Origin: Mesorhizobium tianshanense
Lineage (GTDB): Bacteria > Pseudomonadota > Alphaproteobacteria > Rhizobiales > Rhizobiaceae
NCBI RefSeq assembly: GCF_007830515.1
Contig: NZ_VLKT01000011.1
Coordinates: forward strand, 74,590 to 138,589
Direction: 5' to 3'
Length of the DNA: 64,000 nt
Under the pieces are notes generated by a model. It ran no database searches and had not been told where the DNA came from. It saw only the letters and a list, made by a program, of their open reading frames with translations. How positions within the stretch are numbered: the stretch's first letter is position 1; each line of letters opens with the position of its first letter. A program made the position numbers and the translations under genes. Shown here in pieces: positions 814 to 10,574 of this stretch.

Positions 814-936
814 ACGCCGTCGGATCGTTTGGCGCTGCTTAAATTAGGTGCACCGCAACATCTCTGCTTGGAGAATGGCCAGCATTTGTGTCAGGGTTCG
901 GCGAATTCGTTTCGAAACGCCGACTTCCGGGGCACC

Positions 937-3900
937 ATGGCAATTCTGGCAGCCGTCTACCACCTGACCCATTACAAATATGACCGGCCGGTCGTTCTCG
1001 GCCCTCAGGTCATCAGGCTGCAGCCGGCGCCGCATTCCCGCACCAAGGTGCTCAGCCATTCGCTGAAGGTCGAGCCGGCGAACCATTTCGTCAACCTGCA
1101 GCAGGACCCCTACGGCAACTTCCTTGCCCGCTTCGTGTTTCCGGAACCGGTGACGGAACTGAAGATCGAGGTCGACCTCGTCGCCGACATGACGGTCTAC
1201 AATCCGTTCGATTTCTTCGTCGAGCCGTCGGCCGAAACGTTTCCCTTCGAGTATCCGGAAGAGATCAGCGACGACCTCGCCATCTACCGGACACCAGAAC
1301 CGGCCGGGCCGCTGCTGTCGGCGTTCCTGGAAACCATCGATCGAATTCCAACCAACACCGTCAATTTCGTCGTTGACCTCAATGCGCGCCTGCAACGCGA
1401 GATCGCCTATATCGTGCGCATGGAAACCGGCGTCTTTTCGCCTGAGGAAACGCTGGCCGCCGGCAAGGGATCGTGCCGGGATTCGAGCTGGCTCCTGGTG
1501 CAGATCCTGAGGAACCTCGGCATCGCCGCGCGTTTCGTCTCCGGCTACCTGATCCAGTTGAAACCCGATCTCGTCGCGCTTGACGGGCCTCCTGGCACGG
1601 CGATCGACTTCACCGACCTCCATGCCTGGTGCGAAGTCTATCTGCCGGGGGCCGGCTGGATCGGGTTCGACCCGACCTCCGGCCTGCTCACCGGCGAAAG
1701 CCATGTGCCGCTGGCGGCCACGCCGCATTTCCGCAACGCCGCGCCCATTTCCGGCATGGCGAGCTTCGCCAATGTCGAGTTCGGCTTCGACATGCGGGTC
1801 GACCGCATCGCCGAGCACCCGCGCATCACCAAGCCGTTCTCCGACGAAAGCTGGCAGGCGCTCGATGCGCTCGGCAATCAGGTCGACGCCGCGCTCGAGG
1901 CCGGGGACGTGCGGCTGACCATGGGCGGCGAGCCGACCTTCGTGTCGATCGACGATTTCGAGGCGGAGGAGTGGAACACCGCCGCCGTCGGCCCGACAAA
2001 ACGCGAAAAGGCCGATGCTTTGATCCGCCGGCTGCGTGAGCGTTTCGCGCCCGGCGGCTTCCTGCACTACGGGCAGGGCAAGTGGTATCCGGGCGAAAGC
2101 CTGCCGCGCTGGACCTTCTCGCTCTACTGGCGCACCGACGGCGACCCGGTGTGGAGCGACCCGTCGCTGATCGCACGGGAAAACAGCGAAGCGAATATTG
2201 GGCCGAAGCAGGCTGAAAGCCTGCTGACGACGATTGCCGATGAACTCGGCATCGACAAGACCATGGTCAGCGAAGCCTATGAGGACCCGGCCGAGTGGCT
2301 GCTCAAGGAAGGCAAGCTGCCGGACAATGTCGATCCGTCCAATTCCAAGCTGGAGGACCCCGAGGAGCGCAGCCGCATGGCGCGAGTGTTCGAGCGCGGC
2401 CTGACCAAGCCGTCGGGCTATGTCCTGCCTGTGCAGCGCTGGAACAGCCAGGCGTCGGGACCGCGCTGGCGTTCGGAGAAATGGAAGACGCGGCGCGGCA
2501 AGCTGTTCCTGGTGCCGGGCGATTCACCGGTCGGCTACCGCCTGCCGCTCGGCACGCTTCCCTATGTGCCGCCGGCACAATTCCCCTACATCGTGCCGGT
2601 CGATCCTTCCCTGCCGCGCGGACCATTGCCGGCGCGCGAGGCTATTGTGCCTGAGGCCGCTCCCTTGCCGGAGGCTGCCTCTTTGCCCGAGCGCACTTTG
2701 GCCGAATTGGAAGGCGCCGACGAAATGGCGCGACGCCAGCAGGCGGTGTCCTTCACCGCCGCGACCGGCCAGCAGGACCGTGTCGAACAGGAGATCACCG
2801 AGATCGGCGGCGCGGTGCGCACCGCGCTTTCGGTCGAGCCGCGCGACGGACGGCTTTGCGTGTTCATGCCGCCCGTCGAGGCGCTGGAAGATTATCTCGA
2901 ACTGGTCGCGGCGGCCGAGAACGCGGCAAAGGCGATCGGCCTGCCGGTCCATATCGAGGGCTACGGCCCGCCGCACGATCCGCGCCTCAACGTCATCCGT
3001 GTGGCTCCGGATCCCGGTGTCATCGAGGTGAACATCCACCCGGCTGCGAACTGGCAGGACTGCGTGGCGACGACCACGGCGATCTACGAGGAGGCGCGGC
3101 AGACGCGGCTTGGCGCCGACAAGTTCATGATCGACGGCCGCCATACCGGCACCGGCGGCGGCAACCATGTCGTCGTCGGCGGCGCGACACCCAATGACAG
3201 CCCGTTCCTGCGCCGCCCCGACCTCTTGAAGAGCCTGGTGCTGCAATGGCAGCGGCGCCCGTCGCTGTCCTATCTGTTCTCGGGCCTGTTCATCGGCCCG
3301 ACCAGCCAGGCGCCGCGCTTCGACGAGGCGCGCCACGATTCGCTCTACGAACTCGAGATCGCAATGGCGCAAGTGCCGCACCCGGACAAGGGCAATGTGC
3401 CATTGCCGTGGCTGGTCGACCGGCTGTTCCGCAATCTGTTGACCGATGTCACCGGCAACACGCATCGCTCGGAAATCTGCATCGACAAGCTGTTTTCGCC
3501 GGACGGCCCGACCGGCCGGCTAGGGCTGGTCGAGTTCCGCGGCTTCGAGATGCCGCCCAATGCGCGCATGAGCCTCGCGCAGCAATTGCTGGTGCGCGCC
3601 ATCATCGCCCGCGCCTGGAACGACCCGCTCGATGGCCGCTTCGTGCGTTGGGGCACGTCGCTGCATGACCGCTTCATGCTGCCGCACTACGTCTGGGCTG
3701 ACTTTCTCGACGTGCTGGACGACCTCAAGCTGAACGGCCTCGAGTTTCGCCCCGAATGGTTCGACGCGCAGCTCGAATTCCGCTTTCCGTTCTGCGGCGA
3801 GGTCCAGCATGCCGGCATCAAGCTGGAGCTGCGGCAGGCGCTGGAACCGTGGCACGTCATGGGCGAGCAGGGCGCGATCGGCGGCACCGTGCGTTTCGTC

Positions 3901-4332
3901 GATTCCTCGGTCGAGCGGTTGCAGGTGAAGACCGAAGGGCTCAACCCCGAGCGTCACGCCGTCGTCTGCAACGGCCGCATCGTGCCGATGAAGGTGACCG
4001 ATACCAGAGAGATCGCGGTGGCGGGCGTCCGCTTCAAGGCCTGGCAGCCGGCCTCGGGCCTGCATCCCGCGCTGCCGGTCAACACGCCGCTGGTCTTCGA
4101 CATCTACGACCGCTGGTCGGACCGGGCGGTCGGCGGCTGCGTCTATCATGTCGCGCATCCCGGCGGGCGCAGCTACGACACCTTTCCGGTCAACGGCAAC
4201 GAAGCGGAGGCGCGGCGGCTCGCCCGCTTCGAGCCGCGCGGCCATACGCCGTCCGGTTACGTGCTGCGCGACGAAGAAGCCGCTGAAGATTTCCCGATGA
4301 CCCTTGACCTGCGGCGGCCTGCAAGACTCTGA
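937..4332 (+). CDS. Transglutaminase-like + DUF2126 putative amidoligase fusion
   Basis: About 1131 residues. The reading frame is open upstream to a TTG at 829, but the ATG at 937 gives the usual family N-terminus ([18 protein letters not shown]). Residues 1-90 look like the bacterial transglutaminase N-terminal domain. The core triad is visible as Cys180 ([10 protein letters not shown]), His229 (DLHAWCEVY) and Asp245 (GFDPTSG). From about residue 329 ([18 protein letters not shown]) to the end the protein matches the DUF2126/COG4196 type, which Pfam describes as a putative glutamine-synthetase-like amidoligase. Conserved-looking stretches are [24 protein letters not shown] and [14 protein letters not shown]. 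It is followed by the ATP-grasp gene 6 bp later, so the three genes probably form one operon. Substrate is unknown; protein or peptide amide-bond chemistry is inference. Confidence 0.85.
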
Positions 4333-4338
4333 TCAGCC

Positions 4339-6744
4339 ATGGCAAAGGGGAATCACGAGAAAATACGCGGCAGGCCGCATAACCTGCTGGAGCATTACCA
4401 GCCGATCGATGGCGTCGTCGACGAGATGGTGGATGCATCGGGCAATCCCCGCCCGGTCTGGACGAACTTCATCGAGGCACTGGAGAACCTGGGGCCAGAA
4501 AAGCTCGCCCAGCGGTTCGCCCGCGCCGATCAGTATCTGCGCGACGCCGGTGTCTACTACCGCGTCTATGACAAGGCCGGCGCCAACGAGCGCGAATGGC
4601 CGCTGGCGCATGTTCCCCTGCTGATCGAGGAGCAGGAATGGGCCGACATCAGCGCCGGCCTCGTCCAGCGGGCCGAGCTGTTCGAGGAGACGATAGCCGA
4701 TATCTATGGGCCGAACCGGCTCATCGAGAAAGGTATCCTGCCGGCGGGGCTGATCGCGGCGAGCCCGGAATATTTGCGGCCCGTCGTCGGCATCAGGCCG
4801 GCCAGCGGCCATTTCCTGCATTTCTGCGCCTTCGAGCTCGGCCGTGGACCGGACGGCCGCTGGTGGGTGCTGGGCGACCGCACGCAGGCGCCGTCAGGTG
4901 CCGGCTTCGCGCTGGAAAACCGCGTCGCCACCACGCGTGCGCTGTCCGACATCTATGGCGAGATGCATGTGCACCGCCTTGCCGGCTTCTTCCGTCGCTT
5001 TCGCGACGCGCTGAACGGCATGGCCAAGGGATCAGGCGGCCGGGTCGCCATCCTGACGCCGGGGCCGCTCAACGAAACCTATTACGAACATGCCTATATC
5101 GCCCGCTATCTCGGCATCATGCTGCTCGAAGGCGAGGATCTGACCGTCTCCGGCGGCCGGCTTATGGTGCGCACGGTTTCGGGGCTGATGCCGGTCAGCG
5201 TGCTGTGGCGACGGCTCGACGCCGCATTCGCCGATCCGCTCGAATTGCGGCCGGATTCGCAGATCGGCACGCCGGGGCTGGTCGAGGCGATCCGCCGGGG
5301 CGCCGTTTCGGCCGTCAACGCACTCGGCTCCGGGCTGATGGAAACGCGGGCGCTGTTCGCCTTCCTGCCGAAGATTTCGCGCGAATTGCGCAATGAGGAG
5401 CTTCTTTTGCCGAGCGTCGCGACTTGGTGGTGCGGGCGGGACACGGAGCGCGCGCATGTGCTCGCCAATATCGACCGCATGGTAATCGGTCCGGCGCTGT
5501 CGACGCGGCTTGCCTTCGAGGATGACGAGTCCACCAGGCTGGGCTCGGCGCTGTCGGCCGGAGAACGGGCCGAACTGATAGCGCAGATCGAACGGGACGG
5601 CGGCGACTTTGTCGGACAGGAAGCGGTGACGCTTTCGACCACGCCGGTCTATGTCGGCGGCTGGCTGGAGCCGCGGCCGGCAAGCCTGCGCGTCTATCTG
5701 GCGCGAACGCCGGAAGGCTGGACGGTGATGCCCGGCGGTTTTGCCCGCGTCGGCTTTTCGCTTGACCCGACAGCACTCGCCATGCAGCGCGGCGGTCAGG
5801 CGGCGGATGTCTGGGTGGTCAGCGACAGGCCGGTGGAGCGCGAGACGCTGCTGCCGCAGGAGCACGACAGCTTCACCCGCAGCATGCCGGGCAGCCTGCC
5901 CAGCCGCTCGGCGGAAAACCTGACATGGCTCGGCCGCTATATCGAGCGATCGGAAGACACGGTACGCATCCTGCGCGCCTATCACGTGCGGCTGGCCGAG
6001 GCGTCCGACCCGGACATGCCGCTGCTTGCCGATATCAGGGACTATCTCGAACCGTTCGGCATCGACACCGCGACGGCGATCCCGCTGGGGCTGATCGGCA
6101 CGCTGGACAGCGCCGTCTACAGTGCCGGACAGATCCGCGACCGCTTTTCGCCCGATGGCTGGCTGGCGCTGAAGGACCTGTCGAAGACCATTCATCAATT
6201 CGCGACAACGGTGGCGCCGGGCGACGATGCGACGCGGGCGATGACGGTCATCCTGCGCAAGCTCGCCGGGTTTTCCGGCCTGCTGCATGAGAATATGTAC
6301 CGCTTCACCGGCTGGCGCTTCCTGGAGATCGGCCGGCGGCTGGAACGCGGTATCCAGATCGCCCGCACGCTCGCCCGGTTGACCAGGGCGGCTGCGCCGG
6401 ACGGCGCGCTCGACATGATGCTGGAGATCGGCGACAGCGTCATGACCCATCGGCGGCAGTATCCGGTGCAGGCCGGCCGGCGCACGGTGATCGATCTCCT
6501 GGTGCTCGATCCGCTCAACCCGCGCTCGATCCTGTTCCAGCTTGAGCGGCTGAAGGCCGAAATCGCGCTGTTGCCTTCCGTCGGCGGCGAGGGGCATATG
6601 TCGCCGGCGGCAAAAGAGATCCTGCAGCTCAACACGGCAATCGCCATCAAGGAGCCCTCGGATATGACGGCGAAAGCCTTGGACGATCTCGCCGACGAGA
6701 TCGGCGGCCTCTACAACAGCCTCGCCAAGGCCTATTTCGGGTAA
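4339..6744 (+). CDS. Circularly permuted ATP-grasp + alpha-E domain fusion
   Basis: 801 residues. The N-terminal two thirds match the circularly permuted ATP-grasp family (formerly DUF404/DUF407), with GPNRLIEKGILPAGLI, WWVLGDRTQAPSGAGFALEN, ILTPGPLNETYYEHAYIAR and SRELRNEELLLPSVATWWCG as landmarks. From about residue 514 (SMPGSLPSRSAENLTWLGRY) the protein becomes the all-helical alpha-E (DUF403) domain. The two domains are separate genes in many bacteria and are fused here. The family is predicted to form carboxylate-amine bonds using ATP; no substrate is established that I know of. It starts 6 bp after the amidoligase stop and ends 2 bp before the next transglutaminase ATG, so co-translation is likely. 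Confidence 0.88.
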   Translation: MAKGNHEKIRGRPHNLLEHYQPIDGVVDEMVDASGNPRPVWTNFIEALENLGPEKLAQRFARADQYLRDAGVYYRVYDKAGANEREWPLAHVPLLIEEQEWADISAGLVQRAELFEETIADIYGPNRLIEKGILPAGLIAASPEYLRPVVGIRPASGHFLHFCAFELGRGPDGRWWVLGDRTQAPSGAGFALENRVATTRALSDIYGEMHVHRLAGFFRRFRDALNGMAKGSGGRVAILTPGPLNETYYEHAYIARYLGIMLLEGEDLTVSGGRLMVRTVSGLMPVSVLWRRLDAAFADPLELRPDSQIGTPGLVEAIRRGAVSAVNALGSGLMETRALFAFLPKISRELRNEELLLPSVATWWCGRDTERAHVLANIDRMVIGPALSTRLAFEDDESTRLGSALSAGERAELIAQIERDGGDFVGQEAVTLSTTPVYVGGWLEPRPASLRVYLARTPEGWTVMPGGFARVGFSLDPTALAMQRGGQAADVWVVSDRPVERETLLPQEHDSFTRSMPGSLPSRSAENLTWLGRYIERSEDTVRILRAYHVRLAEASDPDMPLLADIRDYLEPFGIDTATAIPLGLIGTLDSAVYSAGQIRDRFSPDGWLALKDLSKTIHQFATTVAPGDDATRAMTVILRKLAGFSGLLHENMYRFTGWRFLEIGRRLERGIQIARTLARLTRAAAPDGALDMMLEIGDSVMTHRRQYPVQAGRRTVIDLLVLDPLNPRSILFQLERLKAEIALLPSVGGEGHMSPAAKEILQLNTAIAIKEPSDMTAKALDDLADEIGGLYNSLAKAYFG

Positions 6745-6746
6745 GT

Positions 6747-7631
6747 ATGCTCTACGACATCAGGCTCAATCTGCGTTACGACTATGATGCCGCAGCCGGC
6801 GGCGGCCGTCATCAGGTGCATGTGCTGCCGCCGACGATATCGGGGGTGCAGCGCGTGATCGCCGCTTCGCTATCCTTCGCGCCGTCGCCGAGCGAACGCT
6901 CGGACTTTTCCGACTTCTTCGGCAACAGCGTCACGTCGATCGCCTTTCGCGACGTCCACGATGCGCTCGACATCAGGATGAGCGCGCGCGTTGCGGTCTC
7001 GCGGCCGGAACCCGGGCTTGACGTATCGCCCGACATTCCCCGGCTGCGCGTGGAACTCGACGCGGTGCGGTCGCTGTCGCCCGATACACCGCATCACTTT
7101 CTGGCAGCCAGCGACCATGCAGGCGTCGATGCGGCGATCACGAGTTACGCGCAGGGCAGTGCCGGCCGTTCCGTCGTCGGCACGGCCATGGACCTGTGCA
7201 GCCGCATTCATCGCGATTTCACCTATGACGGCAAAGCGACCACCGTTCGGACCCGAGCCAGCGACGCTTTCAGCCTGAAGCGGGGTGTCTGCCAGGATTT
7301 TTCACACATCATGATCGCCGGCCTGCGCGGCCTGGGTGTTCCCGCCGGCTATGTCAGCGGGTTCCTGCGCACCATTCCGCCGCGCGGGAAACCGCGACTG
7401 GAAGGGGCCGACGCCATGCATGCCTGGGTGAAGGTGTGGTGCGGACGCGACACCGGATGGCAGGAATTCGATCCGACCAACGGCATGCGGGCAAGCAACG
7501 ACCACATCACCGTCGGCCACGGCCGCGACTATTCGGATGTAGCGCCGATCGTCGGCGTGCTGAAGACGACGGGCGGGCAGGTCGGCGAGCAAGCGGTCGA
7601 CGTCATTCCGGTCGTGCTCGAGAAGACATGA
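6747..7631 (+). CDS. Transglutaminase family protein
   Basis: 294 residues with an N-terminal beta domain of the bacterial transglutaminase type (MLYDIRLNLRYDYDAAAGGG) and a transglutaminase/protease core. The catalytic triad reads Cys182 (KRGVCQDFSH), His225 (DAMHAWVKVW) and Asp242 (QEFDPTNGM). No signal peptide is seen, so a cytoplasmic role is likely. The start lies 2 bp after the preceding stop (TAAGTATG arrangement), making it the third gene of the amidoligase/ATP-grasp unit. Known family members hydrolyse or cross-link amide bonds; in this setting it could trim or recycle a peptide made by its two neighbours, which is inference. Confidence 0.88.
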   Translation: MLYDIRLNLRYDYDAAAGGGRHQVHVLPPTISGVQRVIAASLSFAPSPSERSDFSDFFGNSVTSIAFRDVHDALDIRMSARVAVSRPEPGLDVSPDIPRLRVELDAVRSLSPDTPHHFLAASDHAGVDAAITSYAQGSAGRSVVGTAMDLCSRIHRDFTYDGKATTVRTRASDAFSLKRGVCQDFSHIMIAGLRGLGVPAGYVSGFLRTIPPRGKPRLEGADAMHAWVKVWCGRDTGWQEFDPTNGMRASNDHITVGHGRDYSDVAPIVGVLKTTGGQVGEQAVDVIPVVLEKT

Positions 7632-7710
7632 CGGCAGCGAGTCCGCAATCCATGGGGGAACCAGCTGCGGGTCCGGCGCTTATCTACGGGAAAAACTTCG
7701 TGGAGAGGAC

Positions 7711-8814
7711 ATGCTGGACAAATCCGGGTCGTCGTCTGGCCGATCGGTCGCCAGGAAGGTTGCACCAAAGAACGGGGTGCCGAAAAATGGATCGCAAGCC
7801 TGTGCCGATCGAGCCTCGCTTACCTACATCACCGATACCGAGCCCGGTATCCGCCGTTTTAGGGCCGGCAGAGGATTTTCATACAAAGGGCCTGACGGGC
7901 AGGGCGTCGATGAGGACACTATGGCCCGCATCAAGGCGCTCGCCATTCCACCGGCGTGGACGGATGTGTGGATCGCGCCGGATGCCGACGGTCACATCCA
8001 GGCGACCGGCCGGGATCAGCGTGGGCGCAAGCAGTATCGGTATCATGCGCTGTGGGCTGAGGAGCGTGACGGCGTCAAATACTCGAGCCTGGTCGCCTTT
8101 GCCGAAATCCTGCCTGAGCTGCGACGCCAGATCGACGCCGATCTGCGCCGTCGCGGTCTGTCGCTGGAGCGGGTTGTCGCCGCTGTGGTCTGGCTGCTCG
8201 ACAATACGATGATCCGCGTCGGCAATGCCGCCTATGCTCGCGACAACAACAGCTTTGGGCTGACCACGCTGCGCGACCGCCATGTCGACATCAATGGCTC
8301 GAGCCTGCGTTTCGCTTTCAAGGGCAAGTCCGGCAAGGAATGGAAGCTGAAGCTCGTCGATCGCCGGATCGCCAGGATCGTGCGCGGGGCGCAGGACCTG
8401 CCGGGCCAGAAGCTGTTCCAGTATCTCGACGAGGAAGGAAGCAGGCGACCGATCCGCTCCGACGACGTCAACCGCTACATCAGGGAGACGGCAGGGGTCG
8501 ATTTCAGCTCCAAGCATTTCCGGACCTGGGGCGGCACCATCCATGCCGCGTCGCTGTTTGCGCAAACCGAACGACCCGAAAGCCAGGCACAACAGAAGCG
8601 GGTGATGAACGGCGTCATCGACAAGGTGGCCGAGCGGCTGGGCAACACGCGCGCCATCTGCCGCAAATGCTACATCCACCCGCAAGTGTTCGATGCCTGG
8701 TCCGAAGGACGGTTGCTCAGCGAAATGGCGGATGCGAACAAGCGGAAGCGATCGATAGCCGGCCTTGATGAAGAAGCTCTCGTTCTGAGATGGCTGAAGG
8801 CGCAAGAAGGCTGA
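7711..8814 (+). CDS. DNA topoisomerase IB (poxvirus-like)
   Basis: 367 residues; relaxes DNA supercoils through a 3'-phosphotyrosyl intermediate. The tyrosine is Tyr321 in RKCYIHPQVF, the typical bacterial TopIB context. Other catalytic-pocket motifs are NTMIRVGN (Arg169), KGKSGKEW and HFRTWGGT. The first 40 residues are basic and low in complexity. The ATG at 7711 is preceded by GGAGAGGAC. It lies 80 bp after the transglutaminase gene on the same strand, so it could be read through from that operon, but no functional link is evident. Confidence 0.93.
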   Translation: MLDKSGSSSGRSVARKVAPKNGVPKNGSQACADRASLTYITDTEPGIRRFRAGRGFSYKGPDGQGVDEDTMARIKALAIPPAWTDVWIAPDADGHIQATGRDQRGRKQYRYHALWAEERDGVKYSSLVAFAEILPELRRQIDADLRRRGLSLERVVAAVVWLLDNTMIRVGNAAYARDNNSFGLTTLRDRHVDINGSSLRFAFKGKSGKEWKLKLVDRRIARIVRGAQDLPGQKLFQYLDEEGSRRPIRSDDVNRYIRETAGVDFSSKHFRTWGGTIHAASLFAQTERPESQAQQKRVMNGVIDKVAERLGNTRAICRKCYIHPQVFDAWSEGRLLSEMADANKRKRSIAGLDEEALVLRWLKAQEG

Positions 8815-8928
8815 ACCAGACAGAGCAACCGCAGACTTTCACGGCCTCGCAGGACACATTTTTTTATCGACGCTGTGTCGGGATCGGTTCTACTGTTTCG
8901 TCCTTTGACAGAAGAAAAGGACGCCCCA

Positions 8929-9303
8929 ATGCTCTACGCTATCCTCTGCTATGCCTCCGAAGACGTCGTCTGCTCGTGGAGCAAGGAGCAGGACGATGCC
9001 GTCATGGAAAAGCTCATCGGCGTGCAGGAGAAATACGCCAAGGCGGGCCGGCTTGGCCCGGTGGCGCGGTTGCTGCCGACGACCGCCGCGACGACACTGA
9101 GAAAGGTCAAGGGCGAATCGATCGTCATCGACGGTCCGTTTGCCGAAACCAAGGAACAGTTCCTCGGCTTCTACACCCTCGAATGCGCTGATCTCGACGA
9201 AGCCGTCGATTTCGCCCGCGAGCTTTCCGAGGTCAACCCGAGCGGCGGCTCCTACGAAATACGGCCGGTTTCGCTCTTCAGCCCCGCCAAGGTTCCCGCA
9301 TGA
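8929..9303 (+). CDS. YCII/DGPF domain protein
   Basis: About 124 residues from the ATG at 8929 (MLYAILCYASEDVVCSW), preceded by an AAAGGAC ribosome site. It carries the signature IDGPFAETKEQFLGFY of the DGPF (YCII-related) family, a small ferredoxin-like dimeric fold. Genes of this family are regularly found directly before ECF42-group sigma factors. Here the stop overlaps the sigma-factor start by 4 bp (ATGA), so the pair is translationally coupled. The biochemical role of DGPF proteins is not settled; a link to the sigma factor's signalling is inferred from the conserved pairing. Confidence 0.88.
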   Translation: MLYAILCYASEDVVCSWSKEQDDAVMEKLIGVQEKYAKAGRLGPVARLLPTTAATTLRKVKGESIVIDGPFAETKEQFLGFYTLECADLDEAVDFARELSEVNPSGGSYEIRPVSLFSPAKVPA

Positions 9304-10574
9304 CCGACCTTACCTGGATCAGCACGGCGATCAGCACCGCCCGTCCACAGGCGATGGGTGCGCTGCTGCGCTACTTCCGCGATCTCGATGCGGCGGAGGA
9401 AGCCTTCCAGGACGCCTGCCTGCGAGCGCTGAAGAATTGGCCGACAAACGGGCCGCCGCGCGATCCGGCAGCCTGGCTGATCTTCGTCGGCCGCAACAGC
9501 GGCATCGACGCAGTGCGCAAGCGTGCCAAGCAGGCGCCGCTGCCGGAAGAGGACCAGATCTCCGATCTGGAGGATGCCGAGACCGACATCGCCGAACGGC
9601 TGGACGGCGCGCATTACCGCGACGACATATTGCGGCTGCTGTTCATCTGCTGTCATCCCGACCTGCCGGCGACGCAGCAGATCGCCGTGGCGTTGCGTAT
9701 CGTTTCAGGCCTGAGCGTCAAGCAGATCGCCCGCGCTTTTATCGTCGGTGAAAGCGCCATGGAGCAGCGCATCACGCGTGCCAAGGCGCGCATCGCTGAT
9801 GCCGGCGTGCCGTTCGAGACGCCCGGCGCGGTCGAGCGGTCCGAACGTCTCGCCGCCGTTGCCGCCATGGTCTACCTGATCTTCAACGAAGGCTATTCGA
9901 CCAACAGCGGCGAGGCACCGGCCCGCGCGCCGCTCTGCGAAGAGGCGATCCGACTGGCCCGGCTGCTGCTCAGGCTGTTCCAGACCGAGCCGGAGATCAT
10001 GGGTTTGACGGCGCTTCTGCTTCTCCAGCATGCGCGTGCGCCGGCGCGTTTCGACGAGAATGGCGAGATCGTGCTGCTCGAAGACCAGGACCGCAGCCTG
10101 TGGAGTCGCAAGATGATCGACGAGGGGCTGGCGCTGGTCGACAAGGCGCTGCGCCACCAGAAGCCGGGTCCCTACCAGGTGCAAGCCGCGATCGCCGCCC
10201 TGCATGCGCGGGCGGAAAAGCCCGAAGATACGGACTGGAACGAGATCGACCTGCTCTACGGCCTGCTCGAGCAGATGCAGCCGTCGCCGGTGGTGACGCT
10301 CAATCGCGCCGTCGCGGTCGCCAAGGTGCGCGGGCCGGAAGCGGCACTTGCCATGATCGAGCCCCTGGAACAAAGGCTTTCCGGCTATTTCCATTTCTTC
10401 GGCCTCAAGGGCGGCCTGCTGATGCAGCTCGGTCGAAGCGAGGAGGCGCGTACTGCCTTCGACCGTGCCATCGCGCTTGCCAACACGGCAGCCGAGGCCG
10501 CCCATATCCGCATGCATATCGACCGGCTGATGAAGGAAGGCGCCACGCGGGGAGCCGCGCGGACGGCGCACTGA
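9300..10574 (+). CDS. ECF sigma factor, ECF42-like, with long C-terminal extension
   Basis: 424 residues, more than twice a minimal ECF sigma. Region sigma2 is seen around residues 15-85 (ALLRYFRDLDAAEEAFQDAC, DPAAWLIFVGRNSGIDAVRKR). Region sigma4 is near residues 125-170 (LSVKQIARAFIVGESAMEQR). The remaining 230 residues are helical and TPR-like (FNEGYSTNSGEAPARAPLC; NRAVAVAKVRGPEAALA). This layout and the upstream DGPF gene match the ECF42 group, in which the C-terminal extension is thought to replace an anti-sigma factor. No anti-sigma gene is nearby, in agreement with that idea. Confidence 0.9.
   Translation: MTDLTWISTAISTARPQAMGALLRYFRDLDAAEEAFQDACLRALKNWPTNGPPRDPAAWLIFVGRNSGIDAVRKRAKQAPLPEEDQISDLEDAETDIAERLDGAHYRDDILRLLFICCHPDLPATQQIAVALRIVSGLSVKQIARAFIVGESAMEQRITRAKARIADAGVPFETPGAVERSERLAAVAAMVYLIFNEGYSTNSGEAPARAPLCEEAIRLARLLLRLFQTEPEIMGLTALLLLQHARAPARFDENGEIVLLEDQDRSLWSRKMIDEGLALVDKALRHQKPGPYQVQAAIAALHARAEKPEDTDWNEIDLLYGLLEQMQPSPVVTLNRAVAVAKVRGPEAALAMIEPLEQRLSGYFHFFGLKGGLLMQLGRSEEARTAFDRAIALANTAAEAAHIRMHIDRLMKEGATRGAARTAH

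Follow-up and report, generated by a model that had tools for sequence, protein, structure and literature searches.

A transglutaminase-DUF2126 operon of Mesorhizobium tianshanense as a candidate half of a two-operon amide-bond system with a seemingly silent ATP-grasp

A circularly permuted ATP-grasp, a glutamine synthetase (GS)-like ligase, an Ntn peptidase and an alpha-helical domain were reportedly brought together by Iyer et al. in 2009 as parts of a predicted peptide-tagging system. By that definition, Mesorhizobium tianshanense has the same domain set, spread over two operons of its genome. Our study concerns one of them, a three-gene unit on contig 11 of the 7.86 Mb genome, within a stretch of 64,000 nucleotides (NZ_VLKT01000011.1, positions 74,590 to 138,589; hereafter the window), which encodes a transglutaminase-like domain fused to DUF2126 (P1), an ATP-grasp fused to alpha-E (P2) and a second transglutaminase-like protein (P3). 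The other, on contig 2, encodes an unfused ATP-grasp, alpha-E, a transglutaminase and the proteasome-like peptidase Anbu. We call the unfused ATP-grasp set of the Anbu operon type A and the fused unit of the window type B. Our results point, with a probability of about one half, to a nitrogen-linked two-operon amide-bond system in which the DUF2126 ligase would be active, P2 silent and the ATP-grasp of the Anbu operon intact. The initial annotation had presented P1-P3 as the best candidate for an undescribed system in the window, which is not right: Pfam already labels DUF2126 a 'putative amidoligase', and three papers, in the passages concerned, credit Iyer et al. (2009) with the ATP-grasp/alpha-E/transglutaminase part as a peptide synthesis or tagging system (PMC5666114, PMC6376114, PMC3597751), the authors of one of them preferring protein degradation to peptide synthesis (PMC5666114).

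In the Anbu operon, exemplified by PP_2685-2688 of Pseudomonas putida, the ATP-grasp, alpha-E and transglutaminase are homologous to those of the window unit and sigma-54 boxes lie upstream in many genomes, whereas the window unit has no Anbu, carries the transglutaminase-DUF2126 fusion, and has an ATP-grasp that is fused to alpha-E and degenerate at its site. The circularly permuted ATP-grasp fold of P2 is shared (Z 20-23) with Gss, which pairs a ligase with an amidase according to its structure annotation, and with YgiC/YjfC, reportedly peptide-spermidine ligases, as the title of a 2023 paper by Pederick has it; P2 differs from these proteins in being without the E-x-N and lysine, and in the window the roles of ligase and amidase would fall to DUF2126 and to transglutaminase-like domains, respectively. 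Pupylation, which involves the GS-like ligase PafA, Pup and the proteasome and matters in nitrogen-starved Mycobacterium smegmatis according to a passage of PMC8223512, is alike only in the way it works, through a GS-like ligase and a proteasome-type peptidase. It differs in that the open reading frames (ORFs) of at least 40 amino acids beside the operon yielded no conserved small gene like that of Pup, and in the extra ATP-grasp and transglutaminases here; moreover, Anbu is described in a passage of PMC5666114 as not associated with an AAA+ partner. The Pseudomonas rlo operon, with the retropepsin RloA, the inactive transglutaminase RloB and the ATP-grasp RloC (passage in PMC12239564), also joins an ATP-grasp to a transglutaminase with one partner inactive, but its ATP-grasp is RimK-like, RloB is a membrane protein, the peptidase is aspartic and the inactive part is the transglutaminase. 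Papers on rlo and one on Caulobacter NtrC were set aside as sources on the window genes, as the passages in question concern other transglutaminases.

The three genes lie on one strand with gaps of 6 bp (P1-P2) and 2 bp (P2-P3), as first annotated, and both ORF reading and Pfam agree with that description; all Pfam matches are well above the curated cut-offs. The features are as follows.

937..4332, + strand: P1, transglutaminase-like domain fused to DUF2126, 1131 amino acids from the ATG at 937
937..1683, + strand: transglutaminase-like part of P1 (Pfam, triad)
1474-1476, 1621-1623 and 1669-1671, + strand: P1 triad C180, H229 and D245 (alignment)
1768..4314, + strand: DUF2126, predicted GS-like fold (Pfam, structure model, invariant polar residues)
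4339..6744, + strand: P2, circularly permuted ATP-grasp fused to alpha-E, 801 amino acids
4615..5751, + strand: ATP-grasp domain with degenerate site (alignment with unfused paralogues)
4873-4881, + strand: G179-D-R181 of P2 in place of E-x-N (alignment)
5896..6738, + strand: alpha-E domain (Pfam; W530, R533, E536, R537, E669 and R670 kept in both paralogue types)
6747..7631, + strand: P3, second transglutaminase-like protein, 294 amino acids
7290-7292, 7419-7421 and 7470-7472, + strand: P3 triad C182, H225 and D242 (alignment)

P2 matches CP_ATPgrasp_2 over residues 93-471 (459 bits) and Alpha-E over residues 520-800 (192 bits), and its structure model (pLDDT 89) matches 3n6x at Z 44.1 and homoglutathione synthetase at Z 26.2, with Cp1B, YgiC/YjfC and Gss also among the matches (Z about 20-26, homoglutathione synthetase included). 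We aligned 73 unfused (type A) and 125 alpha-E-fused (type B) ATP-grasp domains with 3n6x; types were assigned by the best-matching query, all type-A matches being unfused and 126 of 129 type-B matches fused to alpha-E (the other three sit where their stretches end). The E-x-N motif is present in 73/73 unfused ATP-grasps versus 0/125 fused ones (where E occurs in 2 and N in 0 of 125), and the lysine at position 358 is kept in 73/73 versus 12/125. The D-D-K at 309-311 is kept in 1, 0 and 2 of the 125 fused domains, respectively, and the glycine-rich loop is likewise gone. The E-x-N, lysines and loop are taken as site residues on the basis of motif and fold. In fungal Cp1B, the residues R139, D141, E163 and N165 lie around the adenosine, and changing each to alanine abolished or attenuated activity (passage in PMC12568646); glutathione synthetases are expected to bind the phosphates by two lysines and magnesium by acidic residues (passage in PMC2845819). 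Altogether, 46 positions are conserved in type A but changed in type B and 35 are conserved in both. Of 15 positions picked from the 46 as motifs to be expected of the ATP/Mg site, all 15 are kept in 71 type-A sequences and 14 in the remaining 2, and only 0-5 in type B, a total that is partly circular owing to the picking, so that the motifs themselves are the telling part. The P2 ATP-grasp thus looks catalytically dead, and would be expected to be silent in vitro.

The fused type has conserved positions of its own, namely R181 (109/125), E335 (123/125), W364 and G366 (0.99 each), E302 (0.96) and Q183 (0.84), and 14 alpha-E positions are kept across the two types (66 and 83 sequences, respectively). 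These two observations suggest that P2 is selected with a changed site rather than being a decaying gene. The alpha-E model itself matched only assorted helical proteins among the structures compared (best Z about 10), which is uninformative for helix bundles. Because of the motif loss in P2, only one ligase is expected in this operon, and the suggestion of two different amide-forming enzymes in the unit is not supported.

An unfused ATP-grasp is a constant companion of DUF2126. CP_ATPgrasp_2 was found in 161 of 299 genomes drawn from the phylum, 156 of these matches being strong and five weak (E 1e-7 to 1e-3), and alpha-E occurred in 156/299, exactly the genomes with a strong ATP-grasp match. 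DUF2126 was present in 84 of the 299 genomes and, in a draw from the order, in 63/150; 84/84 of the former also had a strong ATP-grasp match against 43.8 expected by chance, although the genomes are related, so that the P value should not be read literally. Synechococcus elongatus, the control genome, had matches to all three families searched. Since scores do not separate the two types (a fused protein in genome G265 reaches 532 bits), we used frame lengths to type them. The best ATP-grasp in all 84 DUF2126 genomes is of the unfused type, with frames of 407-616 amino acids that are too short for the fusion, the exception in length being a 1368-amino-acid frame in G341 that a separate annotation assigned to the unfused type; an intact site was confirmed for the 73 aligned unfused proteins and the others were typed by frame length. 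Each of nine further genomes that we searched also had an unfused-type ATP-grasp, while G284, a 74% complete genome without DUF2126, had only a fused one. Activity of the type-A ligase is favoured by the ATP-grasp of Yersinia bercovieri, which frees phosphate from ATP (passage in PMC6376114). The combination of site loss in the fused ATP-grasp with a constant unfused paralogue is new here, in that we did not find it in the open-licence literature.

The likely ligase of the operon is DUF2126, judging by the GS-like fold of its model (pLDDT 74.5). P1 matches Bact_transglu_N (89 bits), Transglut_core (61 bits) and DUF2126 (PF09899; 1337 bits against a cut-off of 27, covering 3-826 of the 826 profile positions), and a sequence search of P1 against solved structures gave a single match, to one transglutaminase-like sequence (E 0.005). 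When the 1000 best Foldseek hits of the DUF2126 model were aligned by VIA-align, rows 1-42 were all GS, GmaS, YbdK or GCL, with Z 8.7-11.0, a root-mean-square deviation of 3.5-5.4 and 207-286 aligned residues, and the next row at Z 6.7; models without a clear match often still get Z 7-8 by this method. GmaS and 1-naphthylamine GS, both amine ligases, are among the best matches, and the C-terminal part (model 672-796) resembles beta-sandwich domains. In 41/41 aligned sequences, E697, N699, H744, R794, E797, N841, H843, R844, E846, K851, E866, R868 and E871 are invariant, and with GS folds at Z up to 11.0 the idea of DUF2126 as a plausible amidoligase gains ground. Two of these residues, E697 and H744, pair with E220 and H269 of E. 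coli GlnA in an hhalign profile alignment, which is not significant and was rejected as evidence and kept as a hint only.

The transglutaminase-like domains of P1 and P3 are presumed amidases or transferases on the strength of their triads, and the alignments bear out that both C-H-D triads are intact. P3 matches Bact_transglu_N (63 bits) and Transglut_core (61 bits). The P1 triad is complete in 40 of 41 aligned diverse sequences, the 41st (L090) being gapped there, and in 80/80 named loci, by which we mean the best 80 of 593 stretches, near relatives that are alphaproteobacterial by title, apart from L197 and L201, whose titles give no class. The P3 triad is complete in 40/40 diverse sequences, and its C, H and D are found in 70, 70 and 69, respectively, of 70 named loci (one gap). 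Locus L090 (genome G399, 6628-9733) has a divergent, split pair of transglutaminase and DUF2126 genes without the fused ATP-grasp, and the sole ATP-grasp match in that genome is of type A.

To compare gene order, 40 DUF2126 loci and 20 ATP-grasp loci were annotated with the proteins of the window and of contig 2. The order transglutaminase-DUF2126, ATP-grasp-alpha-E, transglutaminase on one strand is kept in 33/40 DUF2126 loci (counted by hand) and 70/80 named loci, which is far from chance and upholds the reading of the genes as an operon; in seven of the other ten named loci the stretch holds only transglutaminase-DUF2126, sometimes at a contig end, and contig ends cut off the remaining three. 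The type-A and type-B sets lie apart in this genome but close together in others: by hand count, 18/40 DUF2126 loci have Anbu, an unfused-type ATP-grasp or both within their 14-20 kb stretch, among them 16 of the 22 loci outside Alphaproteobacteria, and type-A genes or Anbu accompany the unit in 1/80 named loci. A complete cycle within one operon, as had been proposed, is not supported, the intact paralogue and the Anbu peptidase being on another contig. In Mesorhizobium G328, the type-A operon (L120) gave no Anbu match.

Published work places type-A-like genes in the nitrogen response. In Burkholderia cenocepacia, the genes I35_5080-83, encoding DUF404/407 (ATP-grasp), DUF403 (alpha-E), a transglutaminase protein and a large transglutaminase protein, belong to the NtrC/sigma-54 regulon (passages in PMC5491218), and PP_2686-2688 of P. 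putida are up 11-15 fold in nitrogen limitation (passage in PMC7801951); PP_2687 and PP_2688 are presumably the alpha-E and ATP-grasp genes, from their place in the Anbu operon. For this reason, we scanned 350 bp upstream of approximate gene starts for the sigma-54 box TGGCAC-N5-TTGC with at most one mismatch. The box was found in 21/164 operons against 1.54 expected from mononucleotide shuffles, and in 24/59 operons of a held-out set (40 further loci outside Alphaproteobacteria), for which random windows drawn from those loci predicted 1.73; since genomes and families overlap between the two sets, the second is not phylogenetically independent of the first. Wrong spacers gave 0-1 in the held-out set. 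By leading gene, the held-out box was present in 5/16 DUF2126-led operons, 19/32 type-A-led operons and 0/11 others, and in Alphaproteobacteria it was found in 4/12 type-A-led operons (one within the first codons). An NtrC-like palindrome occurred upstream of 8/34, 16/50, 31/79 and 23/59 operons (0.24, 0.32, 0.39 and 0.39) and in random windows at 0.20, 0.24, 0.17 and 0.26, a result that was set aside because the 79 operons are closely related. A Sinorhizobium meliloti regulatory region by an ATP-grasp (COG2308) gene, from a passage of a nodule-competition association study (PMC8407117), was too indirect to be used.

These observations suggest that this operon and the Anbu operon are the two halves of one amide-bond system, probably cytosolic and probably serving a single pathway. 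DUF2126 would act in the direction of synthesis, spending ATP to make an amide, probably at a carboxylate of the glutamate type, and the transglutaminase-like domain fused to it, together with P3, would break or transfer such amides. The silent P2 would most likely serve the intact ATP-grasp and alpha-E of the Anbu operon as a partner for binding or docking, and the neighbouring genes probably do not encode the substrate. The sigma-54 promoters at many non-alphaproteobacterial operons suggest a system that probably operates under nitrogen shortage.

A number of results weigh against this proposal. With the DUF2126 model, Foldseek (PDB library) gave no match at E <0.001, and the GS-type chains took ranks 2-5, 7 and 9 (E 0.18-0.65) with a superoxide dismutase ahead of them. 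As for P2, a profile of the unfused ATP-grasp matched only 3n6x significantly among the solved structures; its alignment with Gss/YgiC, in which the type-A E-x-N pairs with E330-x-N332 of E. coli Gss, is not significant and was put aside as a hint, so that the residue mapping rests on fold and motif. Some charged residues are among the positions conserved in both types (R111, D121, R169, R195, E250, D267, R291 and D299), and the first acidic residue stays D or E in the fused type; P2 may therefore still bind a ligand. The pairing of the genes is not universal either: of six genomes with a lone transglutaminase-DUF2126, two carry the fused ATP-grasp at another place and the other four have just the unfused one, and Mesorhizobium G328 and G331 (loci L272 and L273) keep P2-P3 without a DUF2126 match. 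Passages on the Y. bercovieri pull-downs report that Anbu formed no specific complex with the remaining proteins of its operon (PMC6376114), and no Anbu peptidase activity was seen on the substrates tried, according to passages of PMC5666114 and PMC6376114. Finally, the link to nitrogen is uneven, since PP_2686-2688 are up in an rpoN mutant as well (14-20 fold) and the wild type shows a change of only 1.1 fold for the Anbu gene PP_2685 (passages in PMC7801951), the reverse strand of the held-out operons has the box in 6/59, none of 18 DUF2126-led operons in Alphaproteobacteria and only 1/78 in the named loci carry it, and neither the window operon nor the contig 2 Anbu operon has one upstream at up to one mismatch.

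Among the alternatives, it is tentatively possible that the genes serve amine or peptide metabolism without any protein tagging, with DUF2126 and the intact ATP-grasp making small gamma-glutamyl or peptidyl amides as GmaS, PuuA and YgiC do, and the transglutaminases hydrolysing them, so that unusual amines become a nitrogen source or store. The GS-type folds closest to DUF2126, which include the amine ligases named above, and the likeness of the ATP-grasp to YgiC/YjfC and Gss fit such a pathway, as do a decarboxylase-like gene behind the Anbu operon here and behind P3 in Pseudooceanicola (L149), and a co-abundance with urea-metabolism domains in marine metagenomes (passage in PMC3597751). However, a decarboxylase stands beside only 3/142 annotated loci, no neighbour cluster exceeds 12/62 loci and no oxidase is among the larger clusters, and a proteasome-like peptidase would be odd in this setting. 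Another explanation, unlikely in our estimation, is that P2 is altered rather than silent, binding a nucleotide or other compound through R181, Q183, E302, E335, W364 and G366 for a different chemistry. These positions are more conserved in the fused type than a dead site would predict, but the E-x-N, lysines and glycine-rich loop have all been lost together.

By analogy with pupylation, one could also imagine a nitrogen-shortage system of Gram-negatives in which the intact ATP-grasp/alpha-E pair would make or activate a small tag, DUF2126 would attach it to proteins, Anbu would degrade the marked proteins and the transglutaminases would trim or remove the tag, the ATP-grasp/alpha-E fusion being a pseudoenzyme that joins the ligases. 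We regard this as rather improbable. No tag gene was found among ORFs of at least 40 amino acids beside 62 loci, though a tag may be encoded elsewhere, and, in the passages cited above, others detected neither Anbu peptidase activity on the substrates tried nor complexes. Two active ligases and two amidases forming a complete small-peptide cycle in this one operon, for which domain content and operon structure speak, are very improbable given the ATP-grasp motifs lost in P2 and 124 aligned relatives, the search beside 62 loci that found no conserved small gene among ORFs of at least 40 amino acids, and the unfused-type paralogue in all 84 DUF2126 genomes and the 9 further ones.

The search for a conserved small substrate gene, which the initial annotation had suggested as a check, found none beside these 62 loci in the 40 largest clusters of unassigned ORFs (ORFs of at least 40 amino acids, E <1e-8), a threshold that conserved peptides of 40-60 amino acids may miss. 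The largest neighbour clusters are antisense frames, signalling and ABC ATPases, or neighbours of close relatives, and the widest covers at most 12/62 loci. Similar ABC ATPase genes lie near seven loci (L008, L066, L093, L106, L109, L110 and L120), six of which carry type-A genes; one is polyamine-transporter-like by eye, and this may be chance. The decarboxylase gene directly 3' of the contig 2 Anbu operon is most like aromatic-amino-acid decarboxylases, and decarboxylase-like genes also lie behind the type-A operon in Mesorhizobium (L008, 9970-11463; L120, 3132-4574) and directly behind P3 in L149 (15946-17409); an aromatic decarboxylase was rejected as a standing partner on the count given above.

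P1 is 52-73% identical to 18 relatives from diverse genomes, and its closest named relative among the best 80 of 593 stretches is in Mesorhizobium prunaredense (96% identity). An NCBIfam scan assigned no family to any of five window proteins. The P1 frame is open 5' of the ATG at 937 up to a TTG at 829, and the DNA in front of the operon contains one further feature:

834..936, + strand: leader, probable promoter/5' region of the operon (DNA alignment of the window with 7 Mesorhizobium loci)

Long invariant runs extend from about 834 to the ATG, even where the DNA just upstream diverges (L123, L124 and L128). Directly 3' of the operon, on the same strand, lies a topoisomerase IB gene (window 7711-8814), a match to which follows the operon in 6/80 named loci, all six Mesorhizobium. 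After it, a YCII-domain gene (8875-9303) overlaps an ECF-type sigma factor-like gene (9300-10574; by eye). The first 14 kb of the window gave no match to Anbu.

DUF2126 occurs in 84/299 and ATP-grasp/alpha-E in 156/299 genomes, yet we found no product for them in the open-licence literature. Our analysis suggests that DUF2126 and the intact ATP-grasp, rather than P2, are the proteins to assay, that nitrogen shortage is the condition to study, and that both operons should be considered together, which would narrow the old question of the function of the Anbu-linked amidoligases to a small set of tests. If this reading is true, P2 would be a case of a conserved pseudoenzyme beside an active paralogue.

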